This document shows, piece after piece, positions 541 to 37,365 of a stretch of DNA of 64,000 nt. This stretch comes from Bacteroidales bacterium (lineage in GTDB: Bacteria; Bacteroidota; Bacteroidia; Bacteroidales; WCHB1-69): NCBI GenBank assembly GCA_017443175.1, contig JAFSOZ010000003.1, forward strand, positions 62,001-126,000, read 5' to 3'. How positions within the stretch are numbered: the first letter of the stretch is position 1; the number at the start of each line of letters is the position of its first letter. The notes beneath the pieces are model-generated. The model was not told the origin of the DNA. It ran no database searches and worked only from the letters and a program-made list of their open reading frames with translations. The position numbers and the translations under genes were made by a program.

Positions 541-600
541 ATCTATTTAGTTTTAAAGTTTTAAAGTTTTAAAGTTCGTAAGGTTCTTAAGGTTTATAAG
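541..600. repeat. degenerate word repeat before kamE
   Basis: The gap upstream of kamE is filled by tandem near-copies of the word TTTTAAAG, then AAGGTTCTTAAGGTTTATAAGG. No promoter box is evident. It is one of six similar tracts in the window, each lying directly before a start codon but each using a different word. Confidence 0.6.
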
Positions 601-611
601 GTTCTTTCTGA

Positions 612-11208: not shown

Positions 11209-11209
11209 T

Positions 11210-11938
11210 ATGAAATACGCATTAGTAACTGGTGGTTCCAGAGGCATTGGCAGGGCCATTTGCATCAAACTGTCCTCCATGGGTTTCCCCGTTCTCATCA
11301 ATTACCAATCCAACCAACAAGCCGCCGAAGAAACCCTGCGGCTCATCACAGAAGCTGGCGGCAAAGGCGAGCTCCTGCAATATGACGTAACCGTAGCCGA
11401 AGAGGTGGACAACGCCATTGAGTCTTGGCAGGCTGCCCATCCGGACGACTATATCGGCATCCTCGTCAACAACGCAGGTATCCGCAAGGACACACTCATG
11501 ATCTTCATGCAGAACGAGGACTGGCAGAGCGTTATCAACACCACGCTCAACGGCTTTTTCTACACCACCCGCAGACTTATCAAGGGGATGCTCTCCAAAC
11601 GCGACGGACGCATCATCAACATGGCATCCTTGTCTGGTCTCAAGGGTCAAGGCGGCCAGTCGAACTATTCTGCGGCCAAGGCTGCGCTCATAGGCGCCAC
11701 CAAAGCGCTGGCACAAGAGATCGGTTCCCGCAAGATCACCGTGAACGCCGTGGCGCCCGGTTTCATCGAAACGGACATGACCAAGGATTTCAATGAAGCC
11801 GATTTCAAGAAGATGATCCCTGCCGGACGTTTCGGCAAGCCCGAGGAAGTGGCCGCATTGGTCGGTTTCCTGGCCTCCGACGACGCTGCCTACATTACCG
11901 GCGAGGTGATTTCAATAAATGGAGGGTTGTACACATAA
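11210..11938 (+). CDS. 3-oxoacyl-ACP reductase (FabG/ApeQ-type) of the polyene cluster
   Basis: A 242-residue short-chain dehydrogenase. It has the NADPH-binding T-G-G-S-R-G-I-G at 7-14, N-N-A-G at 87-90, and the catalytic residues Ser140, Tyr153 and Lys157 in N-Y-S-A-A-K. It reduces the beta-keto group after each condensation. It starts 1 base after the ammonia-lyase stop, so it is translationally coupled. As part of a type II polyketide cluster it is probably dedicated to the polyene and separate from the fatty-acid FabG. Confidence 0.9.
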   Translation: MKYALVTGGSRGIGRAICIKLSSMGFPVLINYQSNQQAAEETLRLITEAGGKGELLQYDVTVAEEVDNAIESWQAAHPDDYIGILVNNAGIRKDTLMIFMQNEDWQSVINTTLNGFFYTTRRLIKGMLSKRDGRIINMASLSGLKGQGGQSNYSAAKAALIGATKALAQEIGSRKITVNAVAPGFIETDMTKDFNEADFKKMIPAGRFGKPEEVAALVGFLASDDAAYITGEVISINGGLYT

Positions 11939-11950
11939 ACATATTGGCAG

Positions 11951-11970
11951 AGGCGCATGGCCATGCGCCT
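11951..11970. repeat. 20-bp perfect palindrome, interspersed palindrome family copy 1
   Basis: Half-site AGGCGCATGG followed by its exact reverse complement, between the reductase and ketosynthase genes. The wider context (GCAG before, CTCAAC after) matches the core of the palindrome at 17664-17701, so the two look like members of one family. It contains two ATG triplets in frame with the following gene; I treat these as accidental. Confidence 0.75.
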
Positions 11971-11992
11971 CAACAAACAAAGGCAATACATT

Positions 11993-13213
11993 ATGAGACG
12001 AGTAGTTATTACAGGTATGGGCATCTATTCTTGTCTGGGCAAGAACCTGGACGAGGTGCGCCAGTCTTTATACGCCGGCAAATCCGGCATTGGCATTGAG
12101 CCGATCAGAACCGAATACGGGTATCGTTCCCCGCTCACCGGCATCGTGGAGCGTCCCATGTTGAAAGGCATGCTGGACCGCAGGTCCAGAGTCTGCCTGG
12201 CCGAAGAGGGCGAATACGCCTATATGGCCACGGCAGAGGCATTGCGCAACGCCGGCATTGACATGGACTATCTGGAAAAGAACGAGGTGGGTGTGCTGTT
12301 CGGCAACGACTCCTCCGCCAAGGCGGTCATTGAGGCCCACACCACGGCCATGCAATATAAGGATACTCAGATGATGGGCTCCGGTGCCATATTCCAGAGC
12401 ATGAACTCCACCGTCACCATGAACCTGTCCACCATCTTCAAGCTGCGCGGCATCAACATGACCATCAGTGCAGCCTGCGCCAGCGGCTCGCACGCCATCG
12501 GCCTCGGACTGATGTTCATCCGGAACGGACTGCAGGACATGGTCATCTGCGGCGGCGCACAGGAGACCCACTATCTCTCCATGGGCAGTTTCGACGGCAT
12601 CGGCGCATTCTCCGTTCGGGTGGACGACCCGACCAAAGCATCCCGTCCGTTCGACCGCGACCGTGACGGCCTCGTGCCCGGAGGAGGTGCAGCCGCTGTG
12701 ATTTTGGAAGACTACGACCATGCTGTCAAAAGAGGCGCGCACATCATCGCGGAGGTTGCCGGCTACGGTTTCTCCTCCAATGGTGCCAATATCTCACAGC
12801 CCAGCGACATGGGCTCCGGCATCGCCATGGAACGCGCCCTCAAGGACGCGGGCGTGCAGGCAAGCGACATCGACTACATCAACGCCCACGCCACCTCTAC
12901 CCTCCAGGGTGACGCATTCGAAGCCATGGCCCTAGACCACCTCTTCACCCCGTACCACACCCCGATCAGCTCCACCAAGTCCATGACCGGACACGAATGC
13001 TGGATGGCCGGTGCGAGCGAGATCGTCTATTCCAACCTGATGATGCTCAACTCCTTCATAGCTCCCAATATCAACTTCGAGAATCCCGACGAGTATTCCA
13101 AGAATCTCAACATCGTCAACCAAACCATGGAGAAGAACATTGACACTTACCTTTCCAACTCTTTCGGATTTGGAGGAACAAACAGTGCTTTAGTCATTAA
13201 AAAAATTAAATAA
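11993..13213 (+). CDS. beta-ketoacyl-ACP synthase (KS) of the polyene cluster
   Basis: A 406-residue FabF-like ketosynthase with the full Cys-His-His triad: Cys162 in S-A-A-C-A-S-G, His299 in N-A-H-A-T-S-T, His334 in M-T-G-H. The C-terminus has the N-S-F-G-F-G-G-T-N loop. The ATG at 11993 is preferred over one at 11957 because it gives the standard KS start M-R-R-V-V-I-T-G-M-G, and because the upstream ATG lies in an interspersed palindrome. It resembles FabB/F-type synthases that elongate or initiate the aryl polyene. Confidence 0.9.
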   Translation: MRRVVITGMGIYSCLGKNLDEVRQSLYAGKSGIGIEPIRTEYGYRSPLTGIVERPMLKGMLDRRSRVCLAEEGEYAYMATAEALRNAGIDMDYLEKNEVGVLFGNDSSAKAVIEAHTTAMQYKDTQMMGSGAIFQSMNSTVTMNLSTIFKLRGINMTISAACASGSHAIGLGLMFIRNGLQDMVICGGAQETHYLSMGSFDGIGAFSVRVDDPTKASRPFDRDRDGLVPGGGAAAVILEDYDHAVKRGAHIIAEVAGYGFSSNGANISQPSDMGSGIAMERALKDAGVQASDIDYINAHATSTLQGDAFEAMALDHLFTPYHTPISSTKSMTGHECWMAGASEIVYSNLMMLNSFIAPNINFENPDEYSKNLNIVNQTMEKNIDTYLSNSFGFGGTNSALVIKKIK

Positions 13214-13219
13214 CATATT

Positions 13220-13462
13220 ATGCAAAGAGAAGAAATTATCGAAAAAGTGAACCACTTTTTGGTGGAAGAAATCGAGATTGAAGAAAATCTGTTAAAAGAA
13301 GATGCCTTGTTGAAAGAAGGTCTCGGCATCGACAGCCTTGACTTTGTGGACATCGTGGTCATCGTGGAGAAGAACTTCGGCTTCAAGATCAAGCCTGAAG
13401 AGATGACGAACGTGAAAACGCTGGGACAGTTCTACGATTACATCGCTGGAAAAGTAAACTAA
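13220..13462 (+). CDS. acyl carrier protein 1 of the polyene cluster
   Basis: An 80-residue carrier protein with the phosphopantetheine site G-I-D-S-L-D (Ser39). It differs from the housekeeping AcpP at 42828, whose motif is G-A-D-S-L-D. It starts 6 bases after the ketosynthase stop. Two carrier proteins in one cluster is normal for aryl-polyene systems. Confidence 0.92.
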   Translation: MQREEIIEKVNHFLVEEIEIEENLLKEDALLKEGLGIDSLDFVDIVVIVEKNFGFKIKPEEMTNVKTLGQFYDYIAGKVN

Positions 13463-13470
13463 GCGCATCC

Positions 13471-14364
13471 ATGGCCGATTCGCGACAATGGCAAGGCAAG
13501 ACAAGCGGTGGAAAATTCGGGCAACGCTTTCTCCTCACCTTCCTGAAACACTTCAAGGTGACGGTGTTGTATCCGACGCTACTGCTTATTATTCCTTTTT
13601 GCCTATTGTTTGCCCGAAAGCCCAATCGCGCATTGTACCACTACTTCCATGACATTCGCGGTTACGGCAGATGGAGGTCATTACGTTCCACAGCACGTGC
13701 CGCCTACACCTTCGGCAAAGTGGTCATCGACAAGTTCGCCATCTGGGCGGGGCGCAGCGACCAGTTCCGAATCGACCTGCAGCATCCCGAGATCACCCAA
13801 CAATTATTGGAACAGGACAAGGGCGTGCTCATTGCGGGCTCCCACATCGGCAATTTCGAGTTGCTCGGGCCCACACTCCAGCATAATCAGAAGAAAATCA
13901 ACGTCATCATCTATGGAGGCGAAGCAGAAGCCCTCAGCCGGCAGCGAGACTTCGTGTTCGGAGGAAATAATGTGAATCTCGTGCCCGTGACGCAGGACAT
14001 GTCGCACCTGTTCACCATCAAGAATGCCCTGGACAACGGCGAGGTGGTGGCTATCCTGTGCGACCGTCTTTTCGGCAGTCCCAAGAAGAAGACCGTGGAT
14101 TTCATCGGAAAACCTGCTGATTTCCCCATCGGACCGTTCCGCCTGGCCGCACAAATGGACATCCCCGTTCTCTCCGTCTTCATGATGAAAGAGCGGAAAA
14201 GAAACTATACCGGCTATGTGGTCCCGTTGCACACGGAGGCCGGCATGGCGGTTACCCAGAAGGTGGATGCCCTTGTGGAGCAGTACGTAAAGTCGTTGGA
14301 GGACACGCTTGTCCAGTACCCCTGCCAATGGTTCAACCTATACGATTTTTGGAACATAGAATAA
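13471..14364 (+). CDS. LpxL/HtrB-like lysophospholipid acyltransferase
   Basis: A 297-residue membrane-associated acyltransferase with an N-terminal hydrophobic helix (about residues 30-48) and the LpxL-type catalytic motif H-x4-E (His125, Glu130) in G-S-H-I-G-N-F-E. The family transfers acyl groups from acyl-ACP to lipid A precursors. In aryl-polyene clusters such enzymes are thought to move the polyene acyl chain onto a lipid anchor. It lies 8 bases after the ACP gene, which fits use of an ACP-bound substrate. Its acceptor lipid is not known from sequence. Confidence 0.85.
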   Translation: MADSRQWQGKTSGGKFGQRFLLTFLKHFKVTVLYPTLLLIIPFCLLFARKPNRALYHYFHDIRGYGRWRSLRSTARAAYTFGKVVIDKFAIWAGRSDQFRIDLQHPEITQQLLEQDKGVLIAGSHIGNFELLGPTLQHNQKKINVIIYGGEAEALSRQRDFVFGGNNVNLVPVTQDMSHLFTIKNALDNGEVVAILCDRLFGSPKKKTVDFIGKPADFPIGPFRLAAQMDIPVLSVFMMKERKRNYTGYVVPLHTEAGMAVTQKVDALVEQYVKSLEDTLVQYPCQWFNLYDFWNIE

Positions 14365-14386
14365 TTTTTCACAAACATAGACGAAT

Positions 14387-15472
14387 ATGAAATTAGAATC
14401 ACCGCAAAAGGAAATATACGCCAAAGAACGGTTCACCGCTTTACAGGCACAACGCCTTGCCCAGGAAATCGCCTTCGGCCCCATCGTGTTCCAGGTCTCC
14501 CGCCTGATGGTCAAGTTCGGCATCTTCCGTATGCTGGACGAGCACAAGGATGGCATGACCATGGAGGAAATCGCCGACCAGGCCAAGTTGTCGATTTACA
14601 GCGCGAAAGTGCTGTTGGAGTCATCGCTCACCATCGGCACCATCCTGATGCGGGACGACAAGTTCTTCCTCGCCAAGGCAGGCTGGTTCCTGCTCAACGA
14701 TGAGATGGCCCGCGTCAACATGGACTTCAACCACGATGTCAACTATCTTGGATGGTTCAACTTGGAAGAGGCCTTGCTCAACGGCAAACCGGAAGGCTTG
14801 AAAGTCTTCGGCAACTGGCCCACCGTATATGAGGGGCTGTCGCAGCTCCCGCCGCAAGTGCAGAAGAGCTGGTTCGGATTCGACCATTTCTATTCCGACA
14901 ACTCTTTCCAGCAAGCCTTGGAGATTGTGTTCAAGACGCAGCCCAAGACCCTGCTGGATGTGGGTGGCAACACCGGCCGCTGGGCCACACAGTGCGTGCG
15001 CTACAACGCTGACGTGCAGGTCACCATCATGGACCTGCCGCAGCAACTGGCCATGATGCGCGAACAGACAAAAGGATTGGAAGGTGCCGACCGCATCCAC
15101 GGCCACGGCTGCAACCTGCTTGACAAAACCGTGCCCTTCCCCGAAGGTTTCGACGCCATCTGGATGAGCCAGTTCCTCGATTGTTTCTCCGAAGAGGAGG
15201 TTATCAGCATTTTAAGCCGCGCCGCCAAGTCCATGAATGCGCAGAGCAGACTCTACATCATGGAGACCTTCTGGGACAGACAACGTTTTGAAACGGCTTC
15301 CTACTGTCTGGCACAAATCAGCCTCTACTTTACGGCTATCGCCAACGGCAACAGCAAGATGTACTACTCCGGCGACATGGCCCGCTGCGTGGACGAAGCC
15401 GGACTCAAGATTGACATCATCCACGACGGACTGGGCTTAGGTCACAGCATCATGCAATGTAGTTTGAAATAG
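14387..15472 (+). CDS. SAM-dependent methyltransferase of the O-methyltransferase type
   Basis: A 361-residue class I methyltransferase with a winged-helix dimerisation region (about residues 20-110) and a C-terminal Rossmann domain whose SAM loop is D-V-G-G-N-T-G at 191-197. The layout matches plant-type/polyketide O-methyltransferases. The likely target is the aryl hydroxyl or ring of the polyene head group, as in methylated aryl polyenes. The start is the first ATG 22 bases after the acyltransferase stop. O- versus C-methylation cannot be told from sequence alone. Confidence 0.82.
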   Translation: MKLESPQKEIYAKERFTALQAQRLAQEIAFGPIVFQVSRLMVKFGIFRMLDEHKDGMTMEEIADQAKLSIYSAKVLLESSLTIGTILMRDDKFFLAKAGWFLLNDEMARVNMDFNHDVNYLGWFNLEEALLNGKPEGLKVFGNWPTVYEGLSQLPPQVQKSWFGFDHFYSDNSFQQALEIVFKTQPKTLLDVGGNTGRWATQCVRYNADVQVTIMDLPQQLAMMREQTKGLEGADRIHGHGCNLLDKTVPFPEGFDAIWMSQFLDCFSEEEVISILSRAAKSMNAQSRLYIMETFWDRQRFETASYCLAQISLYFTAIANGNSKMYYSGDMARCVDEAGLKIDIIHDGLGLGHSIMQCSLK

Positions 15473-15479
15473 TGTAACC

Positions 15480-15890
15480 ATGAGTCCCACCCCTGCCCTG
15501 CCTTTTATACCTCAACGCCCGCCATTTGTTTTAGTGGACAACATTCTTTCCTGTGATGAATCAATCGTAATCACAGATTTTCACATTCCCGAGGACCACA
15601 TTTTGGTGGAAAACGGACTTTTGTCCGAAGCCGGGCTGATGGAGAACGTGGCGCAGACCTGTGCTGCCCGCATCGGTTGGCTCAATCAGACACAACCCGT
15701 GCGCCTCGGCGTGATCGGGTCCATCAACAATTTTGAGATTCTCCAACTGCCCCGTGCAGGCAAGCAGCTCGTCACCACCGTCGCTGTCGAGTCCTCCGTA
15801 TTCGAGGCCATCATTGTGAACGCGGAAGTGTCCTGCGACAACCAACCTGCCGCAAGGTGCAAGATGAAGGTGTTTGTTATTGAGAATTGA
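15480..15890 (+). CDS. hotdog dehydratase-like subunit (ApeP type), lacks the canonical His
   Basis: A 136-residue hotdog protein of the FabZ/FabA dehydratase group, with lead P-Q-R-P-P-F-V-L-V-D. In a gapless alignment with FabZ the catalytic glutamate is kept (Glu55 in L-M-E-N-V-A-Q), but the catalytic histidine of the G-H-F-P motif falls on Ile41, with His40 one residue away. The other cluster dehydratase at 21974 keeps the histidine and has lost the glutamate. This complementarity suggests a heterodimer like ApeI:ApeP of aryl-polyene systems. It starts 7 bases after the methyltransferase stop. Confidence 0.82.
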   Translation: MSPTPALPFIPQRPPFVLVDNILSCDESIVITDFHIPEDHILVENGLLSEAGLMENVAQTCAARIGWLNQTQPVRLGVIGSINNFEILQLPRAGKQLVTTVAVESSVFEAIIVNAEVSCDNQPAARCKMKVFVIEN

Positions 15891-15930
15891 GACTGAAGAC
15901 TAGAGACTGAAGACTAGAGACTATAGACTG
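15891..15930. repeat. degenerate word repeat before the thioesterase
   Basis: Near-copies of GACTGAAGACTAGA and GACTATAGACTGATGACTGA fill the whole gap between the dehydratase stop and the thioesterase ATG and run into the coding start. Confidence 0.7.
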
Positions 15931-16356
15931 ATGACTGATAAAACATTACAAGTAGAAAAAATCGTGGATGTCCGTTTCAGCGAAGTTGATTCGATGGGTA
16001 TTGTTTGGCATGGCAACTATGCCCTCTATTTCGAGGATGCGCGGGAGCTGTTCGGCAAGACCTACCAGCTGGAATACATGCACATGTACGAGATGGGTTT
16101 TTTCGCCCCCTTGGTAGAACTAAAGCTCAACTATAAAAAGGCTGTAAAATACGAGGATAGAATTAAAGTACGCTGTACCTACCGCGAAACGGATGCGGCC
16201 AAGCTCATCTTCGACTACGAAATCAGAGATGCAAAGACCGATGACATTATGGTCACCGGACACACGGTGCAAGTATTTTTAGATCTCAACCAGAACCTGA
16301 TCTGGCAGATGCCGGATTTTTATATTGAGTGGAAAAAAATCAACGGGTTGTTGTAA
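15931..16356 (+). CDS. 4HBT-family acyl-CoA/acyl-ACP thioesterase
   Basis: A 141-residue hotdog thioesterase of the YbgC/4-hydroxybenzoyl-CoA type: D-S-M-G-I-V-W-H-G-N-Y with the catalytic Asp at residue 20, followed by F-E at 34-35. Thioesterases (ApeK in characterised clusters) are part of aryl-polyene systems, where they bind the carrier proteins and may release or edit chains. It is the last gene of the first block; a fresh promoter follows. Confidence 0.85.
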   Translation: MTDKTLQVEKIVDVRFSEVDSMGIVWHGNYALYFEDARELFGKTYQLEYMHMYEMGFFAPLVELKLNYKKAVKYEDRIKVRCTYRETDAAKLIFDYEIRDAKTDDIMVTGHTVQVFLDLNQNLIWQMPDFYIEWKKINGLL

Positions 16357-16404
16357 GACAGCCTCAATCCAACACAAAACCAGCAACTACCCTGTCCAAG
16401 CAGG

Positions 16405-16447
16405 CACTTCTTACGAAGTGTTATGTAAGTTATTTTTTATATATTTG
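16405..16447 (+). promoter_or_regulatory. promoter of the second polyketide block with an adjacent inverted repeat
   Basis: TATATTTG at 16440-16447 is a perfect -7 box followed by CGCC, 39 bases before the ketosynthase ATG at 16487. The inverted repeat CACTTC-TTAC-GAAGTG at 16405-16420 lies where a -33 element or operator would sit. It could be a regulator site or a weak terminator of block one; there is no T-run directly after it. Confidence 0.65.
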
Positions 16448-16486
16448 CGCCTCATTTTAAATTGAGTGAAGAATACCCATAACTAT

Positions 16487-18322
16487 ATGATTTTCAGTAT
16501 TGGAGACAGCATTATTTCCCCTTTGGCCATGACGAGTCACGGCAACTTCGAGGCCGTCATGCGGGGCGAGAGCCGTCTGCAATACTACGAGCATGCGTTT
16601 GGACTGCCCGAGCCCTGCTTCATCTCCCTGATGGAGGATGAGCGGATAGACCGTGCGTTTGAAACCATCTACGACTATAGCGTGAAGGATTACACCAAGA
16701 TGGAGAAAGCGGCCATCTTGGCTGTCCATCAAGCCATTGCGGAGGCCAACATTGCAGCCAACCGCAGTGATGTCATCTTCATTCTCTCCACCACCAAAGG
16801 TAATGTGGATTTGCTTGAATCCAACCCATACGAGCCGGAGCGCCCTTACCTGTGGCGTTCAGCGCAACTCATAGCCGAGTTTTTCGGCAATCCAAACACG
16901 CCCATAGTGGTCAGCAATGCCTGCATCTCGGGTTGTGCCGCGCAGATTGCCGCTGCCAACCAATTGCGTTACGGCGGCTACAAATACGCTGTGGTAGTAG
17001 GTGCAGAGACGCTCTCCAAGTTCGTCATTTCCGGATTCCAGTCTTTCAAGGCACTCTCCAAGGAACGCTGCATGCCATTTGACGGCAGCAGATGCGGTCT
17101 CAACCTGGGCGAGGCTGCAGCAGCCATCGTCTATACCATTGACGACGATCCCACACACATACCGGACAATGCACTGATACTGCGCGCCGGAGCCATCAAC
17201 AACGATGCCAACCACATATCCGGACCCTCGCGCACGGGCGAAGGCCTACTGCGGGCGATCAACAAGGTAATAGCAGGCTTCGACAATGCTCAGCCTGCAT
17301 TTGATGTGAATCGGTTGGCGTTCATCAATGCACACGGTACCGCCACGCTGTACAACGACGACATGGAATCCGTGGCCATCAGCCGCGCGAACTTGCAGCA
17401 GGTGCCCGTCAACAGCCTGAAAGGCTATTTCGGCCACACCCTGGGCGCTGCCGGCATCTTAGAGACCATCATGGCTTACCAGGCCATCAAGAACCACACC
17501 ATCATCGGGACCAAGGGTACCGACAATCCCGCACCCGCCTGCCCCATCAACGTGGCAACAAGCACCATGAACACCAATGGGGATGCGTTCATGAAATTGA
17601 TTTCCGGATTCGGTGGCAGCAACGCGGCATTATTGATGGAAATCAACCGAAATGACAATATGTCGGTTGTAGAGACGCACGGCCGTGCGTCTCTACAACC
17701 GGAAAAACCGACAATTTCCGTCATTTCCCAATGCGACATCACCGACGACGCGGTCGTGCTGAACGGGCAAACCATCATCAGCCGAAACGCAGACAGCAAC
17801 ACATGGCTGGCCGACATCTACCGCCACATCGGCATGGCGTACCCCAAATTCTTCAAGATGGACAACCTCTGCAAGGCCGGCACATTAGCGGCGGAACTCC
17901 TGCTCAAGGATGTGGACTTCGACCGCGAAACGGTGAAGCCGGACTGGGCCGTGGTGCTCATGAACAGTGCCTCTTCACTGGACGACGACCGCCACTACCA
18001 GACCACCATCCAGGATGCGGACAACTACTACCCAAGCCCGGCCGTGTTCGTGTACACGTTAGCAAACATCATCACGGGAGAAATCGCCATCCGACACAAG
18101 ATAGGCGGCGAAAGCTCTTTCTATGTCGTCCCTGCTTTTTCACCCGAACAGATGGACACGATGGTGTCGCAATGTTTCTCCGCCAATCCGGAATTGACGC
18201 ACATCATCTGCGGATGGGCCGATTATGACGAGGGAAAGTGTGAAGTGAAGATGCAATTATTGGAGAAAAATGTAGAGACGCACTGCAGTGTGTATCAAAA
18301 TAACGAGAGAATTGAGAATTAA
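16487..18322 (+). CDS. ketosynthase with C-terminal partial KS-like domain
   Basis: A 611-residue protein. Residues 1-388 form a complete ketosynthase with Cys146 (S-N-A-C-I-S-G), His283 (N-A-H-G-T-A-T) and His317 (Y-F-G-H). Residues 389-410 are a linker, and about 410-595 resemble a shortened second KS-fold half (D-W-A-V-V-L-M-N-S, then Y-P-S-P-A-V-F-V-Y-T-L-A-N-I) with no visible triad. The ATG at 16487 is preferred to GTG at 16466 because it gives the usual M-I-F-S-I-G-D start. A 38-bp perfect palindrome lies inside the linker codons (residues 393-405) and a decayed copy encodes part of the C-terminus. It probably elongates the chain with the partner at 18603. Confidence 0.85.
   Translation: MIFSIGDSIISPLAMTSHGNFEAVMRGESRLQYYEHAFGLPEPCFISLMEDERIDRAFETIYDYSVKDYTKMEKAAILAVHQAIAEANIAANRSDVIFILSTTKGNVDLLESNPYEPERPYLWRSAQLIAEFFGNPNTPIVVSNACISGCAAQIAAANQLRYGGYKYAVVVGAETLSKFVISGFQSFKALSKERCMPFDGSRCGLNLGEAAAAIVYTIDDDPTHIPDNALILRAGAINNDANHISGPSRTGEGLLRAINKVIAGFDNAQPAFDVNRLAFINAHGTATLYNDDMESVAISRANLQQVPVNSLKGYFGHTLGAAGILETIMAYQAIKNHTIIGTKGTDNPAPACPINVATSTMNTNGDAFMKLISGFGGSNAALLMEINRNDNMSVVETHGRASLQPEKPTISVISQCDITDDAVVLNGQTIISRNADSNTWLADIYRHIGMAYPKFFKMDNLCKAGTLAAELLLKDVDFDRETVKPDWAVVLMNSASSLDDDRHYQTTIQDADNYYPSPAVFVYTLANIITGEIAIRHKIGGESSFYVVPAFSPEQMDTMVSQCFSANPELTHIICGWADYDEGKCEVKMQLLEKNVETHCSVYQNNERIEN
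17664..17701. repeat. 38-bp perfect palindrome inside a ketosynthase gene, copy 2
   Basis: The left half (from C at 17664, then GGTTGTAGAGACGCACGG) is followed without a gap by its exact reverse complement. The insertion is in frame and encodes V-V-E-T-H-G-R-A-S-L-Q in the linker between the KS domain and its C-terminal extension. The core GTAGAGACGCACGGCC is of a kind widely seen as dispersed palindromes in bacterial intergenic DNA. Confidence 0.85.
18271..18292. repeat. decayed palindrome at the ketosynthase C-terminus, copy 3
   Basis: The left half TGTAGAGACGCACTGCAG is intact and matches the family core; the right half (TGTGTATC) has drifted. It supplies V-E-T-H-C-S-V near the end of the protein, about ten residues before the stop. 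Confidence 0.6.
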
Positions 18323-18341
18323 CAATTTAAATCATTATAAC

Positions 18342-18599
18342 ATGGAAGAACTGATTTTAGAACTGAAGAAAGAAATTATTGATGTTTTGAATTTGGAAGG
18401 CATGACTCCTGCCGACATTGACGAGAACGCTCCTTTGTTTGGCGAAGGTCTCGGGTTGGACTCCATCGATGCGCTGGAGCTCATCGTGCTGATGGAGAAG
18501 AACTATGGTATCAAACTGGCCAACGCTAACGAAGGCAAGGAGATTTTCAAATCCGTGCGCGTGATGGCCGAATACATCAAAGAGCACAGAACGAAATAA
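18342..18599 (+). CDS. acyl carrier protein 2 of the polyene cluster
   Basis: An 85-residue carrier protein with phosphopantetheine site G-L-D-S-I-D (Ser41). The ATG at 18342 gives the typical M-E-E-L-I-L-E-L-K start; an upstream ATG would add an unrelated tail. It lies 19 bases after the ketosynthase and 3 bases before the fused KS-CLF gene. Carrier proteins of this size with L-G-L-D-S-I-D-A-L-E belong to type II polyketide and aryl-polyene systems. Confidence 0.92.
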   Translation: MEELILELKKEIIDVLNLEGMTPADIDENAPLFGEGLGLDSIDALELIVLMEKNYGIKLANANEGKEIFKSVRVMAEYIKEHRTK

Positions 18600-18602
18600 T
18601 TG

Positions 18603-20897
18603 ATGGACAACATAGTCATCACAGGTACCGGCATCATCAGTTCTTTGGGTGCCGGGAAAGAGGAAACGTTGAAAAGACTGCGGTCCGGGCAAAAGGTCAT
18701 CGGGCCCATTCAGCATATCCGCACCAAACATAGCGACTTGCCCGCCGGTGAGGTGGGCTACAGCGACGACCAGCTGAAAGAGCTCATTCACTACCACGAC
18801 GAGGGTATCATTACCCGCACCTCTCTATTGGCTCGGGTAGCCTTGAGAGAGGCCTTGGAGGAGGCTCGTCTAAACGGCACGGGCGGACAACGTATCGTCT
18901 TCATCTCGGGCAATACCGTGGGCGGTATGGAAAAGAGCGAGCAATTCTATTACGATTTCCTCAACAACAACAGCCGGAACGAATACATTGCCATGCATGA
19001 CTGCGGTGCCTGCACCGACGTGATAGCCAAAGAGTTCAACGGACATTTCTCTCTGATTACCACCATCTCCACGGCCTGCTCCTCCGCAGCCAACGCCATC
19101 ATCCTCGGTGCCAACCTCATCAAAGAGAAGCGTGCCGACATAGTGGTCGTTGGTGGCACGGAGTGCATCTCCAAGTTCCACCTCAACGGGTTCAACACCC
19201 TGATGATTCTGGACAAGGAGCCCTGCCGACCGTTCGACGCCGACCGTCACGGGCTCAACCTCGGGGAAGGGGCAGCCTATCTGGTCATGGAAAAGGAAGG
19301 GACGGCGCGACAGCGCAACGTACAGCCCGTATGCAAATTGTCAGGCTATGGCAATGCCTGCGACGCGTTCCACCAAACTGCCACATCGCCCAACGGAGAA
19401 GGCGCGTTCCTGGCCATGAGCAAGGCGCTGGAGTCCAGCGGACTGAAACCGGAAGACATCGACTACATCAACGCGCACGGCACGGGTACCGGCAACAACG
19501 ACGAGTGCGAGGGCATCGCCATGATGCGCGTCTTCGGCGACAAGATGCCCCCTGTATCATCTACCAAGTCATACACCGGTCATACCACCAGCGCAGCGGG
19601 AGGCGTGGAGAGCGTCATCTCCATACTCGCCCTCACCCATGGTTTCATCCCTGCCAACCTCGGCTACAAGACCCCCATTGAAGGGCACAACTTCAAGCCT
19701 GTGGATCACGTCATCGAAAACGTGACCCTCAAACACATACTCACCAACTCGTTCGGGTTCGGAGGCAACGATTCCTCCTGCATTTTCTCCGCCATAGAAG
19801 AGAAGAGTGTGGCACACGCACCAGCCACTGGCACTAAAAACTGCTACATCCAGTCCGCCGCCCACATTTCCATACAGCAGCCCATCACGGACGATTGGTT
19901 CCAAAACCCCATCCTGCCCGCACAGGCATACAACGAGAGCCTGGAGCCAGACTATGGCAAATATTTCTCCCCTATGGCAGCCCGTCGCATGGGGCGGCTG
20001 CTGAAACGTTCCGTTGCGACTGCCGTGGAGGCCCTTGGCCAACATGAAATTCCCGATGCCATCATCACCGGAACCGGACTGGGTTGCATCGCCAATACCG
20101 AGAAGTTCCTGTCTGCCATGATTGACAACGATGAGGATTTCCTGCAACCCACCTATTTCATGCAATCCACCCACAACACCATCAGTTCGCAGGTTGCACA
20201 GCACCTCAAATGCCATGGTTACAACTGTACCTACTCACACCGGGGGACATCCTTCGACAGCAGCCTGTTTGATGCATTCCTGCAAATGCATTCCGGTGAC
20301 ATCCGCAGCGCACTGGTGGGTGGGCACGATGAGATGACGCCCAATTATTTCAAGATGTTAGGCAAAATCGGCTATTGGAAAGACGGCGACATCAGCCCTG
20401 ACACCCTCAGAAAGGCCGACAGTCAGGGAGCCTTCTCGGGAAGTTGTTCCTTGAACATGCTGCTGACCGACCATGCCGACCCCGACACGCTTTGCAAAAT
20501 CGAAGGGATGGAAATGCTCTACGAGCCCGACATCCAAGATCTTCAGGCGGCAGCCAGCCGGATGCTGCAACAAGCCGGACTCACCGTCCAAGACCTGGAC
20601 GCCGTGGTATCCGGATTGAGCGGCGACCATGACAATGATGCCGTTTACAACTCTTTTACAAAACAGATGTGTCCTGAAAAGCCCGTCATTTGGTACAAGC
20701 ACATCTTCGGTGAATCTTTCTGTGCATCCGCCTTTGGTGTTTACGCAGGAGCTTTGTGCCTGCGGCATAATACTATTCCTGCACACCTGTTGTATCATAC
20801 GTCAGGAGACATCAGCGGCGTCAAGCATATTTTAGTACACAATCATTTCCATAATAAAGATCATTCATTAATCCTTATTTCATCATGTTCTTGCTAA
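18603..20897 (+). CDS. fused ketosynthase / chain-length-factor-like protein
   Basis: A 764-residue fusion. Residues 1-405 are a full ketosynthase (Cys159 in S-T-A-C-S-S, His292 in N-A-H-G-T-G-T, His327 in Y-T-G-H). From about 415 to the end lies a second KS-like domain of the Ketoacyl-synt_2 type in which the nucleophile region reads S-H-R-G-T-S-F-D-S-S with no cysteine, as in chain-length factors. In E. coli-type aryl-polyene systems the KS and CLF (ApeO and ApeC) are separate chains that form a heterodimer; here they are one chain. The start is ATG at 18603. Its end overlaps the next gene by 13 bases. Confidence 0.87.
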   Translation: MDNIVITGTGIISSLGAGKEETLKRLRSGQKVIGPIQHIRTKHSDLPAGEVGYSDDQLKELIHYHDEGIITRTSLLARVALREALEEARLNGTGGQRIVFISGNTVGGMEKSEQFYYDFLNNNSRNEYIAMHDCGACTDVIAKEFNGHFSLITTISTACSSAANAIILGANLIKEKRADIVVVGGTECISKFHLNGFNTLMILDKEPCRPFDADRHGLNLGEGAAYLVMEKEGTARQRNVQPVCKLSGYGNACDAFHQTATSPNGEGAFLAMSKALESSGLKPEDIDYINAHGTGTGNNDECEGIAMMRVFGDKMPPVSSTKSYTGHTTSAAGGVESVISILALTHGFIPANLGYKTPIEGHNFKPVDHVIENVTLKHILTNSFGFGGNDSSCIFSAIEEKSVAHAPATGTKNCYIQSAAHISIQQPITDDWFQNPILPAQAYNESLEPDYGKYFSPMAARRMGRLLKRSVATAVEALGQHEIPDAIITGTGLGCIANTEKFLSAMIDNDEDFLQPTYFMQSTHNTISSQVAQHLKCHGYNCTYSHRGTSFDSSLFDAFLQMHSGDIRSALVGGHDEMTPNYFKMLGKIGYWKDGDISPDTLRKADSQGAFSGSCSLNMLLTDHADPDTLCKIEGMEMLYEPDIQDLQAAASRMLQQAGLTVQDLDAVVSGLSGDHDNDAVYNSFTKQMCPEKPVIWYKHIFGESFCASAFGVYAGALCLRHNTIPAHLLYHTSGDISGVKHILVHNHFHNKDHSLILISSCSC

Positions 20898-30837: not shown

Positions 30838-30845
30838 TATCTTTG
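30838..30845 (+). promoter_or_regulatory. -7 box of the gatE-gatD operon
   Basis: TATCTTTG followed by CGACTTG, a perfect TAnnTTTG element 65 bases before the gatE ATG. A native-looking host promoter in front of archaeal-type genes argues that the pair is expressed and long settled. Confidence 0.7.
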
Positions 30846-30910: not shown

Positions 30911-32860
30911 ATGCAAACCATCAATCCTCAGGAAAATTACGAGAAAAGCCGCAAGGCCATCGGCTATGTTGACCGCAAGCAGGCCACCCAGGCCGACTAC
31001 GACCGCATCGGGTTCATGTCGGGGCTGGAGGTCCACCAGCAACTGGCCACCAAAGAGAAACTCTTCTGCCGCTGTCCCGCCGGCATCTTCCAGAAACCCG
31101 ACGAATACGACGCGGAACTGCTGCGCCACATGCGCCCCACCCTCTCCGAGATGGGCGAGTACGACGGCACCGCGCTCATGGAGTTCAAGACCCGCAAGAA
31201 CATTGTCTATCGCATCGCGCACCGCACCGCCTGTACATACGAGGTGGACGACACTCCGCCGTTTCCCATCAATCCTGAGGCCCTGCAGTACGCTCTTGAA
31301 ATAGCCCTCGCTTCCAAACTGAAAATCGTGGGCGAGGTGCACATCACCCGCAAACAGTACCTCGACGGTTCCATCCCGACCGGTTTCCAGCGTACCGCCA
31401 TTTTGGGTATCGACGGCGAGATCCAACTGAAGAACAAGAAGGTGCGCCTCATCCAGCTCAGTGTGGAGGAGGATGCCTGCCGCGAGGTGTCCGACATCGG
31501 CCACACGCGCGTCTATCGCACCGACCGTCTGGGTATGCCGCTTATCGAAACCGTGACCTACCCTGAGATGGTGAACCCCGATGAGGTGGAAGAGGCCTGT
31601 AACTACATCCGTTTCCTGAACCGAAGCACGGGTCGTGTGCGCACGGGCATCGGCGCGGGCCGCGAGGATGTGAACGTAAGCTGCACCGGCGGCACCCGAA
31701 TCGAGGTGAAGGGCGTGGCCCACACCAAATGGATTCCGGAAGTCACTCACGTGGAGTGCTTCCGCCAGTGGGCTCTGCTCGCCATCCGCGAGCAACTGAA
31801 AGCCCGCATCAGCAAAGAGAATTGGAAAATGAACTATACGGAACTGGATCCTAAACAGTTCCACTTCTATTTCGACCCCATCACCGACGCCATCAAGCGC
31901 GGAGAGAAAGTCTATGCCGTCAACCTGCCGCAATTCGCAGGCCTGCTGTCGCACTTCACCCAGCCCGGACATCCGTTCTACAGCGAGTTCGCCGACAGAT
32001 TGAAAGTCATCGCCTGCTTGGAACGCCCGAACATGGCCACCAGCGAGGATCTGGAGGATGTGGTGAGCCGCAGCGTGTTCGAGAAGGCTGCCAAAGCGCT
32101 GAACGCCGGCGACAACGACGCACAAATCATCTTCTGGGCTCCGGAGGACGATGTGAAGACCGCCTTGGAGGTGATTGAGGAGCGCGCGTTGATGGCCTTC
32201 GACGGTGTCCCGCAAGAGACCCGCAAGGCCCTGCCCGACGGCACCACCATCTTCGAGCGCGTGCTGCCCGGCGCCGACCGTATGTATCCCGACACCGATT
32301 CAGCCCCAATCCCGTTGACCAACGACTACATCGAGGAACTTCGCAAGAACATCCCCGACGCCGTCTCCGACCGCTATGCACAAATGGTGGAATGGGGTGT
32401 GCCGCAGGATTGCTTCAAATACATCTTCACGCACAACTTCTTCCCGCTTATCAAGAAGATAACGGACGAACTCGGCTATTGCCCCAAATACGCAGGCACT
32501 TTCTTCGGCCATCGCCTCAAACATCTGCACGGCCAGTATGGCATGATACCGTTCTGCACCTGCCGGATCTTCGACCTGTTCGCATTCCTGAAACAAGAAG
32601 GTCTCGACAAAGCTATCGCCTACGACCTGCTCAAGCTGATGTTCGAGCATCCGAAGGCTGATTTTGCGGAGTTGCTGGCACTCACCGGCTACCAGAAGAT
32701 GACCAAAGCGGAAATTGAAGAGCAATTGAAAGCCGCAGCCGTCACCTTCAAACCTCGCCGCAAGCGTACTAACGAGAATGACAAGCGCAATAGCATTATA
32801 GGCCATGTTCGTGTTATAGCTATAGGCAATCTTCCTTTTACCGAATTAACAACCAAGTAA
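30911..32860 (+). CDS. gatE: Glu-tRNA(Gln) amidotransferase subunit E, archaeal type
   Basis: A 649-residue GatE, the tRNA-binding and Glu-tRNA-activating subunit of the GatDE enzyme that converts Glu-tRNA(Gln) to Gln-tRNA(Gln). It has the GatB-like cradle start (I-G-F-M-S-G-L-E-V-H-Q-Q-L at 33-45), the archaeal-specific features that separate GatE from GatB (F-C-R-C-P-A-G near 51-58; E-F-K-T-R-K-N near 95-101), an inserted GAD/AspRS-like region in the middle, and a YqeY-like tail. Bacterial GatB is about 470-500 residues, so the length also fits GatE. It is followed by gatD; gatA and gatC are absent. Frame is intact throughout. Confidence 0.92.
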   Translation: MQTINPQENYEKSRKAIGYVDRKQATQADYDRIGFMSGLEVHQQLATKEKLFCRCPAGIFQKPDEYDAELLRHMRPTLSEMGEYDGTALMEFKTRKNIVYRIAHRTACTYEVDDTPPFPINPEALQYALEIALASKLKIVGEVHITRKQYLDGSIPTGFQRTAILGIDGEIQLKNKKVRLIQLSVEEDACREVSDIGHTRVYRTDRLGMPLIETVTYPEMVNPDEVEEACNYIRFLNRSTGRVRTGIGAGREDVNVSCTGGTRIEVKGVAHTKWIPEVTHVECFRQWALLAIREQLKARISKENWKMNYTELDPKQFHFYFDPITDAIKRGEKVYAVNLPQFAGLLSHFTQPGHPFYSEFADRLKVIACLERPNMATSEDLEDVVSRSVFEKAAKALNAGDNDAQIIFWAPEDDVKTALEVIEERALMAFDGVPQETRKALPDGTTIFERVLPGADRMYPDTDSAPIPLTNDYIEELRKNIPDAVSDRYAQMVEWGVPQDCFKYIFTHNFFPLIKKITDELGYCPKYAGTFFGHRLKHLHGQYGMIPFCTCRIFDLFAFLKQEGLDKAIAYDLLKLMFEHPKADFAELLALTGYQKMTKAEIEEQLKAAAVTFKPRRKRTNENDKRNSIIGHVRVIAIGNLPFTELTTK

Positions 32861-32863
32861 TTT

Positions 32864-32896
32864 ACTGATCACTGTTCACTGATCACTAATCACTGT
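32864..32896. repeat. degenerate word repeat before gatD
   Basis: Four near-copies of ACTGATCACTG / TTCACTGATCACTAATCACTG fill the spacer between the gatE stop and gatD start. Confidence 0.6.
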
Positions 32897-32900
32897 AATT

Positions 32901-34382
32901 ATGGAAAATAACGACAAAGTAACATTCCAAGGATATAAAGGACGGGCATTGGAAATGCTCAAAAAACATGACGTTCACGTGTGGGACAAAGCCGAGGTGG
33001 AGACCACCCGCGGACACTTTTCGGGCAAGATTCTGCCCCGCGCCGAGAACACCGACGACATCCACATCGTGATGAAGGTGGCCACGGGCTACAACATCGG
33101 CATCGACATTGAGACAATCACTGACATGAAGGGCGAGCGCGACCCACAGCCCGTGTTCAAGATTCCGGAGAAGGAGTTCCCCTACACACCGGGATTGCCG
33201 CATGTAAAATTGTTGGGTACTGGCGGAACCATCGCCTCCCGGTTGGACTACCGCACCGGAGCCGTGATTCCGGCATTCTCGCCTGGCGAGCTGTATGGTG
33301 CCGTGCCCGAACTGGCCGACATCTGCAACCTGGAGACCGAGAAGGTCTTCGCCGTCTTCTCCGAGAACATGTCGCCTGTGGAGTACAAGGCTCTGGCCAA
33401 CAAGATTGGCGATGAAATCAAGAAAGGCATTGAGGGCATTGTGATTGGCCACGGCACGGACACCTTGGCGCACACCGCCACCGCGTTGACCTACATGTGC
33501 CAGAACCTGCCCATGCCGGTGGTGCTGGTCGGCTCGCAGAGAAGTTCCGACCGTCCGAGTTCCGACGCGGCGCTGAACCTCATGCACGCCATGACCGCTG
33601 CCGGGCACGGCGACATTGCCGAGGTGATGGTCTGCATGTTCGGACCCACCAGCGACGACTACGGTTTCCTGCACCGGGGCACGCGCGTGCGCAAAATGCA
33701 CAGCTCCTACCGCTCCACCTTCCGCACCATCGGCGACACACCGTTAGCCACGGTCAACCGCAAAGACGGTGTTCAGCCCATCAAGGAGGTCTATAACCAC
33801 CGCCGCCACGGTGAGCAGCACCGCCAGGTGGAGGTCATTACCAACTACGAGGACTACAAGAAGAGCATCGCCAAGAACGACCCCAACGTCACGCGCATTG
33901 TGCCCACCTTCGACGACCGTGTGGCCATCCTGTACTACTATCCGGGCATGAAACCCGATGTATTGGACGCATTGATTGACAACGGTTACAAGGGCATTGT
34001 GTGGGACGGCACCGGCCTCGGCCACGTCAACAAGGGCATGTTCGACGCCATACAGCGCGCCACCGACGCTGGCGTGCACCAGTACATGAGCGTGCAGACC
34101 ATCTGGGGTTACACCCACATGTTCGTCTATGACACCGGTCGTGACATGATGGCGCGCGGCATCATCCCCGCCGACAACATGCTGGCGGAGAGTTCCTACA
34201 TCAAACTCGGTTGGGCGTTAGGTCTTACCAAGGACAGCGGTCAAAAGCGGGAGGATGTGAAGAAGCTGATGCTCACCCCCATCAACGACGAAATCACCAA
34301 GCGCGAGCCCTACGACGGCTACCTCGTCTACCAAGGCGGCGTGCCGGAGGTGGAGGAGTTTGTGAAGAAGGTGAGGAAATAG
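32901..34382 (+). CDS. gatD: Glu-tRNA(Gln) amidotransferase subunit D, archaeal type
   Basis: A 493-residue GatD: an N-terminal SH3-like domain (about residues 1-90) and an asparaginase-like amidase domain that supplies ammonia from glutamine or asparagine. Catalytic motifs are intact: G-T-G-G-T-I-A-S (catalytic Thr110), G-H-G-T-D-T (Thr186, Asp187) and the Lys in R-V-R-K-M-H. The strongly GatD-specific S-Q-R-S-S-D-R-P-S-S-D-A-A at 212-224 separates it from L-asparaginases, which are about 330 residues and lack the extra domain. It lies 40 bases after gatE in one operon. Confidence 0.93.
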   Translation: MENNDKVTFQGYKGRALEMLKKHDVHVWDKAEVETTRGHFSGKILPRAENTDDIHIVMKVATGYNIGIDIETITDMKGERDPQPVFKIPEKEFPYTPGLPHVKLLGTGGTIASRLDYRTGAVIPAFSPGELYGAVPELADICNLETEKVFAVFSENMSPVEYKALANKIGDEIKKGIEGIVIGHGTDTLAHTATALTYMCQNLPMPVVLVGSQRSSDRPSSDAALNLMHAMTAAGHGDIAEVMVCMFGPTSDDYGFLHRGTRVRKMHSSYRSTFRTIGDTPLATVNRKDGVQPIKEVYNHRRHGEQHRQVEVITNYEDYKKSIAKNDPNVTRIVPTFDDRVAILYYYPGMKPDVLDALIDNGYKGIVWDGTGLGHVNKGMFDAIQRATDAGVHQYMSVQTIWGYTHMFVYDTGRDMMARGIIPADNMLAESSYIKLGWALGLTKDSGQKREDVKKLMLTPINDEITKREPYDGYLVYQGGVPEVEEFVKKVRK

Positions 34383-34399: not shown

Positions 34400-34427
34400 A
34401 TAGGGCCGCGGCATGCCGCGGCCCTAT
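34400..34427. repeat. 28-bp perfect palindrome after gatD, copy 4
   Basis: Half-site ATAGGGCCGCGGCA with its exact reverse complement and no loop, followed by TTATTT. The TAGGG-C-GCGG pattern resembles the other palindromes at 11951 and 17664 but with a GCATGC centre. It could double as a terminator for gatED, although the T-run is short. Confidence 0.7.
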
Positions 34428-34542
34428 TTATTTGGCGCGCCGCTTGGCAGTCGGCGAATTGGACATCAGCCAATCCAAGACTGTTCACAACCCCTGTTGA
34501 GAATATTTTTTCTTCCTGATACCGAGCATATTATAAAAAATG

Positions 34543-34670: not shown

Positions 34671-35300
34671 ATGTCAGGATTAATAGGAAAAAAAATTGGT
34701 ATGACTAGCATCTACGATGCCTCCGGCAAGATCGTGCCGTGCACAGTGATAGAGGCTGGTCCTTGCGTGGTCACGCAAGTCAAGACCGTCGAGAAAGACG
34801 GCTACAGTGCAATCCAATTGGGTTACGACGAAAAGAAAGAGAAAAACACGACGAAACCTTTGAAGGGTCATTTCGCCAAGGCAGGCACCACGCCGAAAAA
34901 GATCTTACACGAGTTCACCCGTTTCGAGGAAGGACACAAGAAGAGCTTCGGTGAGGTTCTGGACGTCACCGTCTTCGAAGAGGGCGAATATGTGGATGTC
35001 AGCGGAACTTCCAAAGGTAAGGGTTTCCAAGGCGTTGTGAAACGTCACGGATTCGGTGGTGTAGGCGACGCTACGCACGGCCAGCACAACCGTCTGAGAG
35101 CTCCCGGTTCCATGGGTGCATCCTCCTACCCTTCCCGCGTGTTCAAAGGCATGCGCATGGCCGGCCAAATGGGTAACGCAAAGGTCAAGGTCATCAACAT
35201 TCAGATTCTGAAGATTGTCAAGGAAAAGAATTTATTAGTAGTTAAAGGTTCTGTACCCGGAGCCAACGGATCATATTTAATTATTGAAAGATGGAGCTAA
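34671..35300 (+). CDS. rplC: 50S ribosomal protein L3
   Basis: A 209-residue L3, an early-assembly 23S rRNA-binding protein near the peptidyl-transferase centre. Clear family signature: [19 protein letters not shown]. It is first in this block, whereas in bacteria rpsJ normally precedes it. Its last codons overlap the first ten bases of rplD. Confidence 0.97.
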
Positions 35301-35920
35301 CAGTATATAAAATAGACGGCAGTTCAACTGCAAGAACGGTTACCCTGAATGATCAGATCTTCAATGTGGAACCCAACGATCACGCCATCTGGCTTGATGT
35401 GAAACAATATTTGGCCAACCAACGTCAAGGCACACACGACACACTGGAGCGCTCCACCGTTTCCGGTAGTACCCGCAAGCTGAAAAGACAGAAGGGTACG
35501 GGCGGCGCACGTGCCGGTAGTATCAAGAGCCCGACCATCCGTGGCGGTGCAACCGTTTTCGGACCTCACCCGAGAGACTACTCTTTCAAACTGAACAAGA
35601 AAGTGAAGAGACTCGCCCGTTTCTCCGCCTTCACCTACAAGCAGAAAGACGGTAAGATCACAGTGGTGGAAGACTTCAACTTCGAGGCTCCCAAGACCAA
35701 AGCTTACAGCGAGATGCTGAAAAACCTCAAGCTCGACGGTCAGAAGACACTTCTTATCACGGCTGAAAGCAACAAGAACGTGTTCCTCTCCGCACGCAAC
35801 CTGCAACGCACCAACGTGATGTGCGCCCAGAACGCCAACACCTACCACGTGTTGAACGCCGGCCATATCATCCTCTGCGAGAGCAGCCTCAAAGAGCTGG
35901 AGAAAATGTTAGGCGAATAA
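35291..35920 (+). CDS. rplD: 50S ribosomal protein L4
   Basis: A 209-residue L4 with conserved K-G-T-G-x-A-R-A-G-S in the tunnel loop and V-F-G-P-H-P-R-D-Y. Besides its structural role, L4 is the autogenous repressor of S10 operons in Enterobacteria; whether this holds here is unknown. It overlaps rplC by 10 bases. Confidence 0.97.
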
Positions 35921-35948
35921 TTATCAAAAACCTTAAAAAAGAAAAACA

Positions 35949-36239
35949 ATGAGTATCATTATAAAACCCATCATCAGCGAAAAAATGACGCAGACGGCTG
36001 AGAAATACAACCGCTACGGTTTCATGGTGACCCGCGAGGCCACCAAGCCTGAAATCAAACGCGAAATAGAGGCCGTTTATGGTGTTAAAGTAGTCCGCGT
36101 AAATACCCTGATCCAACGCGGTAAAGTCACGAACCGCAATACTAAGGCTGGCGTCATTACAGGTCAGAAGAACAACTTCAAGAAGGCCTACGTGTTCGTG
36201 GACAAGGATCAAAAAATCGATTTTTATAGTAATATTTAA
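35949..36239 (+). CDS. rplW: 50S ribosomal protein L23
   Basis: A 96-residue L23: [11 protein letters not shown] at the start and V-N-T-L-I-Q-R-G-K in the middle. It forms the docking site at the polypeptide exit for signal recognition particle and trigger factor. 28 bases after rplD and 5 before rplB. Confidence 0.96.
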
Positions 36240-36244
36240 AAGAG

Positions 36245-37069
36245 ATGGCACTTAAAAAGTACAAACCAGTAACGCCGGGTCAGCGCTTCAAAGTAATCAG
36301 CGCATTTGATGACATTACCACCAACACACCCGAAAAGAGTTTGTTGAGTCCGATACACCGGACAGGCGGAAGAAACAACAGTGGTAAGATGACGGTACGG
36401 TACCGCGGTGGCGGTCACAAAAGGATGTACCGTATTATTGACTTTAAAAGAGAGAAAGATGGCGTTCCCGCTATCGTGAAGACGATCGAATACGATCCGA
36501 ACCGCTCGGCCCGTATCGCCCTCGTTTACTACGCAGACGGTGAGAAACGCTACATCGTGGCTCCTCACGGTATCAAGGTGGGCCAGGAAATCCTCAGCGG
36601 CGCAGGCGTGTCCCCCGATTTGGGCAACTGCCTCCCTCTTGGTGAGATTCCGTTCGGCTCCATCATCCACAACATCGAGATGCGTCCGGGCCAGGGTGCC
36701 AAAATCGCCCGTAGTGCCGGTTCCTACGCACAACTCATGTCCCGCGAAGGCAAATATGCCATCATCAGAATGCCCTCCGGCGAAACCCGTATGATCCTCT
36801 GCGCTTGCAAGGCTACCATCGGCATCGTCTCCAATGGCGACCACAGCCTCGAGGTTTCCGGTAAGGCCGGTAGATCCCGTTGGTTGGGCAGACGTCCTCG
36901 CAACCGCGGTGTGGTTATGAATCCTGTGGATCACCCGATGGGTGGTGGTGAAGGTCGTGCATCCGGCGGACACCCGCGCTCTCGCAAGGGTATTCCTGCT
37001 AAGGGTTATAAGACCAGACACCCGAAGAAGAATTCCAGCCAGTATATCATCGAAAGAAGAAAGAAATAA
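36245..37069 (+). CDS. rplB: 50S ribosomal protein L2
   Basis: A 274-residue L2 of normal length, needed for subunit association and peptidyl transfer. It has Y-R-G-G-G-H-K-R near residues 45-55 and the C-terminal signature [13 protein letters not shown] with the key histidine. Confidence 0.97.
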
Positions 37070-37086
37070 TCTAAAAGCTTAACATT

Positions 37087-37365
37087 ATGAGTCGTTCATT
37101 AAAAAAAGGTCCGTATATACATTACAAATTGGAACAACGTGTGATCGCCGCTCAGGAATCCGGCAAGAAGACCACTATCAAGACCTGGTCCCGCGCCTCT
37201 ATGATTTCTCCTGACTTCGTAGGCCTTACCATCGCTGTTCACAATGGCAACAAATTCATCCCCGTGTATGTTACCGAAAACATGGTCGGCCACAAACTCG
37301 GCGAATTTGCTCCCACCCGTATTTTCCGCGGACACGCAGGCCAAAAAGACAAAGGTTCCAAATAG
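37087..37365 (+). CDS. rpsS: 30S ribosomal protein S19
   Basis: A 92-residue S19: [10 protein letters not shown] at the start, K-T-W-S-R in the middle, and [11 protein letters not shown] at the end. It is the last gene of the block; rplV (L22) and rpsC, which normally follow, are missing and a strong terminator lies 59 bases downstream. Confidence 0.97.

Follow-up and report, generated by a model that had tools for sequence, protein, structure and literature searches.

We found two adjoining, intact genes, gatE and gatD, in a 64,000-nucleotide stretch of a Bacteroidales chromosome (contig JAFSOZ010000003.1, positions 62,001 to 126,000; the window), and their products appear to form a bacterial version of the amidotransferase GatDE. 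In archaea, the product of GatDE is Gln-tRNA(Gln). The bacterial pair is predicted to convert Glu-tRNA(Gln) to Gln-tRNA(Gln), likely as an accessory to glutaminyl-tRNA synthetase (GlnRS) rather than as the main route, a reading to which we give a probability of about 0.5. An initial annotation of the window had proposed a complete archaeal-type GatDE pair that entered this chromosome by inter-domain transfer and now runs glutamine decoding or another transamidation, possibly alongside GlnRS.

The description of a complete pair was borne out by the family models. GatE passed two equivalog cut-offs (TIGR00134, 404.4 against 319.55 bits; NF003107, 463.9 against 456 bits) and GatD passed one (TIGR02153, 458.8 against 324 bits), while both GatB equivalog cut-offs were missed by the window GatE (119.1 against 338 and 105 against 314.8 bits). 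The gatD product contains the GatD_N domain (PF18195, 40.2 against a cut-off of 25.7); it also passed the type I asparaginase subfamily model TIGR00519 (337.5 against 260.5 bits), with the specific GatD model scoring higher. Residues T101, T177, D178 and K254 of the M. thermautotrophicus (Mth) GatD align to T110, T186, D187 and K265 of the window protein, which we take to be the catalytic Thr, Thr-Asp and Lys. An insertion of about 25 residues (~304-329) lies between the halves of the asparaginase domain and occurs in only three same-genus rows of a 24-row alignment. In GatE, the AspRS-like insertion and the helical tail are both present, the core motifs are intact, and the core is near-invariant across the aligned rows. 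The ratios of nonsynonymous to synonymous substitution rates (dN/dS) against six genus mates are 0.055-0.121 for gatE and 0.022-0.042 for gatD; by this measure, strong purifying selection acts on both genes.

The GatDE pair is no one-genome oddity, nor is it an artefact of its own assembly, which is 59% complete. A GatB_N-family match is present in 27 of 36 same-genus genomes, its own included (two of the 27 are short fragments only), and all 24 matches compared by sequence are GatE. The share is 16/20 among same-genus genomes at least 90% complete. Outside the family but within the same order, 7 of 24 genomes gave GatE-type matches, six of them confirmed by sequence, and GatE scored above cut-off in 31 of the 392 genomes of a phylum sample, the present genome included (completeness is 90% or more and contamination no higher than 5% in 388 of the 392). 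The majority of families sampled in the order and in the phylum have no GatE match. The two genes lie on the same strand with gatE first in 20/20 relatives' neighbourhoods and in 28/29 phylum loci, the exception ending at a contig end; the gap between them is 0.6-1.0 kb in three of those 48 same-strand loci. No third gene is conserved next to the pair in the loci compared.

A degenerate GatE motif scan of one genome per species recovered at least 115 stretches, of which 36 come from bacteria and 79 from archaea (two archaeal ones assigned by title alone), and placed GatE in at least 12 named bacterial phyla, phylum counts being those of this sample. Among the matches listed, the bacterial stretches comprise 18 from Bacteroidota, three from Fermentibacterota, two from Acidobacteriota, four without a phylum, and one each from Chlorobiota, Myxococcota, Planctomycetota, Caldifarciminota (WOR-3), Coatesiibacteriota, Gemmatimonadota, Cloacimonadota, Krumholzibacteriota and Zixiibacteriota. 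The bacterial carriers are mostly metagenome bins; three of them (G191, G353 and G183) are single-contig genomes. GatD named by NCBI is found in Tenuifilum thalassicum (3.2 Mb contig) and T. osseticum, which are presumably cultured species.

Two GatE trees were built. The 110-row tree had three GatB rows as outgroup, and GatE sequences shorter than 560 residues were dropped, which reduced the bacterial loci from 36 to 30 and the archaeal loci from 79 to 55. The 97-row bootstrap tree had 12 bacterial and archaeal GatB rows as outgroup, after removal of L245, L278, L286, L310 and the truncated L003 GatB and thinning of 18 further GatE rows. Three rows tried as GatB outgroup (L324, L325 and L333) turned out to be GatA, and the GatE tree built with them was discarded. 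All 44 bacterial GatE rows of the 97-row tree form one clade (100/99), beside which all 41 archaeal rows form another (100/98); the 110-row tree agrees. The initial annotation had named placement within the GatB family as grounds for abandoning its claim, and GatE falls outside the GatB clade in the trees. The window GatE belongs to a Bacteroidales subclade; the closest rows beyond it come from Zixibacteria, Acidobacteriota and WOR-3. In the 110-row tree, 13 of the 14 other phylum-sample carriers group apart from it, in a subclade shared with rows from Cloacimonadota, Planctomycetota and Gemmatimonadota; the remaining one (G215) lies with the Bacteroidales. This split of the phylum's carriers over two bacterial subclades suggests transfer among bacteria.

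In approximately unbiased (AU) tests on the 97-row tree, trees nesting the bacteria with TACK/Asgard (p 0.062) or with methanogens (p 0.074) were not rejected. Nesting with DPANN (AU p 0.019) and with Thermoplasmata-type rows (AU p <0.001) was rejected. Bacterial GatD also forms one clade (Shimodaira-Hasegawa-like approximate likelihood ratio test 100). The root of the GatD tree falls inside the archaea, contrary to the sister position, yet its sole asparaginase outgroup has a very long branch and is too distant to trust. Among the matches listed, all 26 bacterial loci with both genes have the order gatE-gatD, and 48 of the 50 archaeal ones were called gatD-gatE. The archaeal exceptions are L248, with its genes on opposite strands, and L278, which was called reverse from a fragment, although alignment coordinates place its gatD upstream. 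This difference in order agrees with the deep bacterial/archaeal split in the tree. We conclude from the trees that there is probably one old bacterial GatDE lineage, whose age we infer and whose origin from the archaeal stem or from one archaeal group is possible. A recent gift to this genome is unsupported, and the particular inter-domain transfer first proposed finds no support in the data, as GatE is frequent in the genus, occurs in other families and at least 12 phyla, and forms a bacterial clade beside the archaeal one. It is rather unlikely that the bacterial GatED lineage is primary and equals the archaeal one in age, in which case GatDE would predate the parting of Bacteria and Archaea, have survived in several bacterial phyla, and have adapted there to bacterial tRNA(Gln) and the company of GlnRS. 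If this were true, an ancient bacterial GatED would counter the view of GatDE as an archaeal signature whose tRNA(Gln) excluded GlnRS.

The accessory character of the enzyme is suggested by the company it keeps. GlnRS scored over cut-off in 27 of the 30 other phylum-sample carriers against 181 of 361 non-carriers, counts which ignore kinship, and large families without GlnRS, f43 and f49 for example, likewise have no GatE over cut-off. Within the genus, GlnRS passes in 19 of the 20 genomes with a completeness of 90% or more; in the remaining one it is present in pieces. No glnS over cut-off was found in the window's own assembly, which says little because that assembly is only 59% complete. 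Two GlnRS-negative phylum carriers (G372 and G346) have GatB-type matches; the third (G310) has only a GluRS fragment, and since its GluRS is mostly missing too, an assembly gap is likely. Among the matches listed, GlnRS is over cut-off in 30/36 multi-phylum carriers and GatB in 7/28 of those examined for it. Three of the six without GlnRS (G452, G479 and G484) gave no match whatever in the GlnRS search, although GluRS alone yields a weak one in other genomes, and are thus probably incomplete. In draft assemblies of Coatesbacteria (G468) and Fermentibacteria (G475), GatE is present and neither GlnRS nor GatB was found over cut-off; GatDE could be the only Gln-tRNA route in such lineages. As most carriers have GlnRS, GatDE is usually redundant for Gln-tRNA synthesis and rarely the sole route. 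The earlier suggestion that the pair might work alongside GlnRS fits these relatives, whereas the idea that it now runs glutamine decoding does not, most carriers also having GlnRS or GatB.

No GlnRS or GluRS match adjoins gatDE in the 85 loci and the window. In one locus (L203, G073:C45), glnS is convergent, about 26 bp past gatD, the sole physical linkage of GlnRS and GatDE seen. A Phycisphaerales chromosome (G461, L237) carries GatED and GatB with a GlnRS-like C-terminal piece only (profile 428-524, 91 bits).

In the proposed mechanism, GatD would free ammonia from glutamine or asparagine, and GatE would activate tRNA-bound glutamate with ATP and then amidate it, while the helical tail of GatE may help choose tRNA(Gln). 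The likely job would be the rescue of tRNA(Gln) mischarged with glutamate by GluRS, which would provide both a guard against Glu-for-Gln errors and a second source of Gln-tRNA. The activity, the substrate and the rescue role are predictions. With the core intact and selected, the expected chemistry conserved and the direct route usually present, an accessory amidotransferase appears to be the simplest account. If it is true, the pair would represent an unrecorded pre-ribosomal guard against Glu-for-Gln errors.

Several observations weigh against the accessory reading. The tail of GatE is poorly conserved between bacterial groups. The window's own tRNA-Gln(CTG) and both tRNA-Gln genes of G020 have U1-A72 and A73, in place of the A1-U72 pair that archaeal GatDE reads together with the D-loop, according to the relevant passage of a 2022 review (PMC9499178). 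With A1-U72 absent and the tail diverged, bacterial GatDE presumably reads other features of the tRNA, and its substrate could differ. No GatB_N-family match was found in 4 of the 20 near-complete (at least 90%) same-genus genomes. Archaeal GatDE is expected to work with a non-discriminating GluRS, and all 20 Bacteroidales GluRS have Arg at the position of Thermus Arg358, which we take to mark discrimination. Two of these 20 come from GatB-positive genomes in which no GlnRS was detected, which makes the marker uninformative in Bacteroidales. A specialisation of tRNA(Gln) tied to GatDE was considered and rejected: the tRNA(Gln) of G040, a Bacteroidales genome with no GatB_N match and the single GatDE-negative case compared, likewise has U1-A72 and A73.

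The main rival, which we hold to be somewhat unlikely, is that the amidotransferase has been repurposed, with its core kept and its tail now picking another tRNA or a non-tRNA carrier, beyond ordinary glutamine decoding; another acyl-tRNA is the form of it to be taken most seriously. The poorly conserved tail beside a near-invariant core, the host tRNA(Gln) without the archaeal pair, the redundancy with GlnRS and the genus-specific insertion in GatD would all agree with it. Yet no third gene is conserved beside the pair, the core motifs are intact, and the tail, as modelled, would keep a GatB/GatE-like fold through residue 649. Asn is an unpromising target, as 56 of 60 relatives have AsnRS above its cut-off and the window's own tRNA-Asn has G1-C72, which speaks against it. 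The patchy presence of the pair, missing from some near-complete genus mates and from the majority of families sampled in the order and phylum, could instead mark GatDE as a relic, an older route that was in place before GlnRS came and is now disappearing. This appears quite improbable: the strong purifying selection on both genes and the same-strand gatE-gatD pair in 48/49 relative loci (the other is cut at a contig end) argue for a current function.

It is very unlikely that an archaeal pathway has replaced GlnRS here, with the pair supplying most or all of the Gln-tRNA(Gln). The lack of glnS in its own assembly and the state of G468 and G475 speak for this, and it may hold in some lineages. 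Against it stand the near-complete genus mates, nearly all with GlnRS and mostly with GatE too, and the other carriers in the phylum, where the GlnRS-negative genomes have GatB-type matches or a probable gap. The setting is also other than that of the archaeal glutamine pathway: judging by its genus mates the genome is probably not GlnRS-free, its tRNA(Gln) lacks A1-U72, and its gene order is not gatD-gatE. That the locus is an assembly chimera or archaeal contamination is hardly credible. The unusual gene order downstream, where by eye a ribosomal cluster seemingly ends at rpsS and an MBOAT-like gene follows, could be cited for a chimera, which the initial annotation had itself raised as a danger. 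However, independent genus-mate assemblies hold the same pair, and in one of them (G029) five genes are collinear with the window through gatD at 90-98% identity; GatE lies inside the bacterial clade, and the gene order is of the bacterial kind.

Table 1. Features at and around the gatE-gatD locus (window positions unless a locus is given; aa, amino acids).
Feature	Position	Strand	Remarks
Promoter-like box TATCTTTG, TAnnTTTG-type	30838..30845	+	5' of gatE; letters read, consensus match only
gatE, 649 aa	30911..32860	+	Profiles, domains, fold-matched model, conserved columns
gatE product layout	residues ~302-435; ~470-649		Kinase/transamidase core; AspRS-like (GAD) insertion ~302-435; helical tail ~470-649
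gatD, 493 aa	32901..34382	+	GatD_N domain, then asparaginase-type amidase with T110, T186, D187, K265
Terminator-like hairpin and T-rich tail	34400..34433	+	3' of gatD; letters read
Ribosomal cluster rplC-rplD-rplW-rplB-rpsS	34671-37365		Just 3' of gatD; names by eye
MBOAT-like gene	37492		By eye
Ammonia-lyase-like to methyltransferase-like genes	9697-20897
tRNA-Glu(TTC)/224-aa gene sites	L063:14178-15001, L065:2032-2856, L070:6004-6827, L081:13226-14053

The ribosomal cluster does not have rpsJ at its start, and the MBOAT-like gene and SGNH-like genes stand, by eye, where rplV/rpsC would be. The odd end at rpsS means either that the cluster is genuinely interrupted or that the assembly was joined past rpsS; a weak motif search of the window and 400 kb of its own contig found none of the remainder. 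A tRNA-Glu(TTC) and a gene for a 224-aa Bacteroidales protein occur near gatED in 4 of 14 same-genus neighbourhoods, in differing order. The protein has no Pfam match over cut-off and is matched in 44/60 relatives, with or without GatDE; it was rejected as a GatDE partner and appears to be an ordinary neighbour. Elsewhere in the window, an ammonia-lyase-like gene, several ketoacyl-synthase-like genes, and acyltransferase-, SDR- and methyltransferase-like genes are consecutive, in a set that to us resembles an aryl polyene or dialkylresorcinol-type (flexirubin-like) pigment cluster.

Full-text searches gave no title on bacterial GatDE among those listed. Automatic GatE and GatD names for such bacterial proteins already exist at NCBI; those of Bacteroidales and Tenuifilum are close sequence relatives, known by name only. 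The 2022 review describes GatDE, in the passages concerned, as confined to archaea today and its co-evolution with archaeal tRNA(Gln) as accounting for the absence of GlnRS from all archaea (PMC9499178), and a passage of a 2014 paper states that no bacterium is known with both routes to Gln-tRNA(Gln) (PMC4206432). Bacteria with GatDE and GlnRS, named Tenuifilum species among the carriers, make both published statements directly testable. With bacterial GatE forming a clade next to that of the archaea, there are also new data on whether the common ancestor already had GatDE.

The bacterial pair shares with archaeal GatDE (M. thermautotrophicus 2d6f, P. abyssi 1zq1) both subunits, the domain set, the GatD catalytic residues, the core GatE motifs and the adjoining genes. 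It differs in that bacterial GatE forms a clade apart from all archaeal GatE sampled, with a strongly diverged tail sequence, that the gene order is gatE-gatD instead of gatD-gatE, that the pair is found mostly in GlnRS-bearing genomes, and that the host tRNA(Gln) has U1-A72. To our knowledge, GatB has no counterpart of the GAD-type insertion of GatE. GatB of bacterial GatCAB is nevertheless a GatE homologue with like chemistry, whereas GatE misses the GatB cut-offs and is partnered by an asparaginase-type subunit, not by GatA and GatC. Bdellovibrio, Deinococcus and Thermus also retain an amidotransferase beside the direct synthetases GlnRS and AsnRS, as outlined in part of the 2014 paper; there, however, it is GatCAB that is retained, with Asn-tRNA(Asn) as its presumed product (PMC4206432), and here it is GatDE, the archaeal form of which makes Gln-tRNA(Gln).

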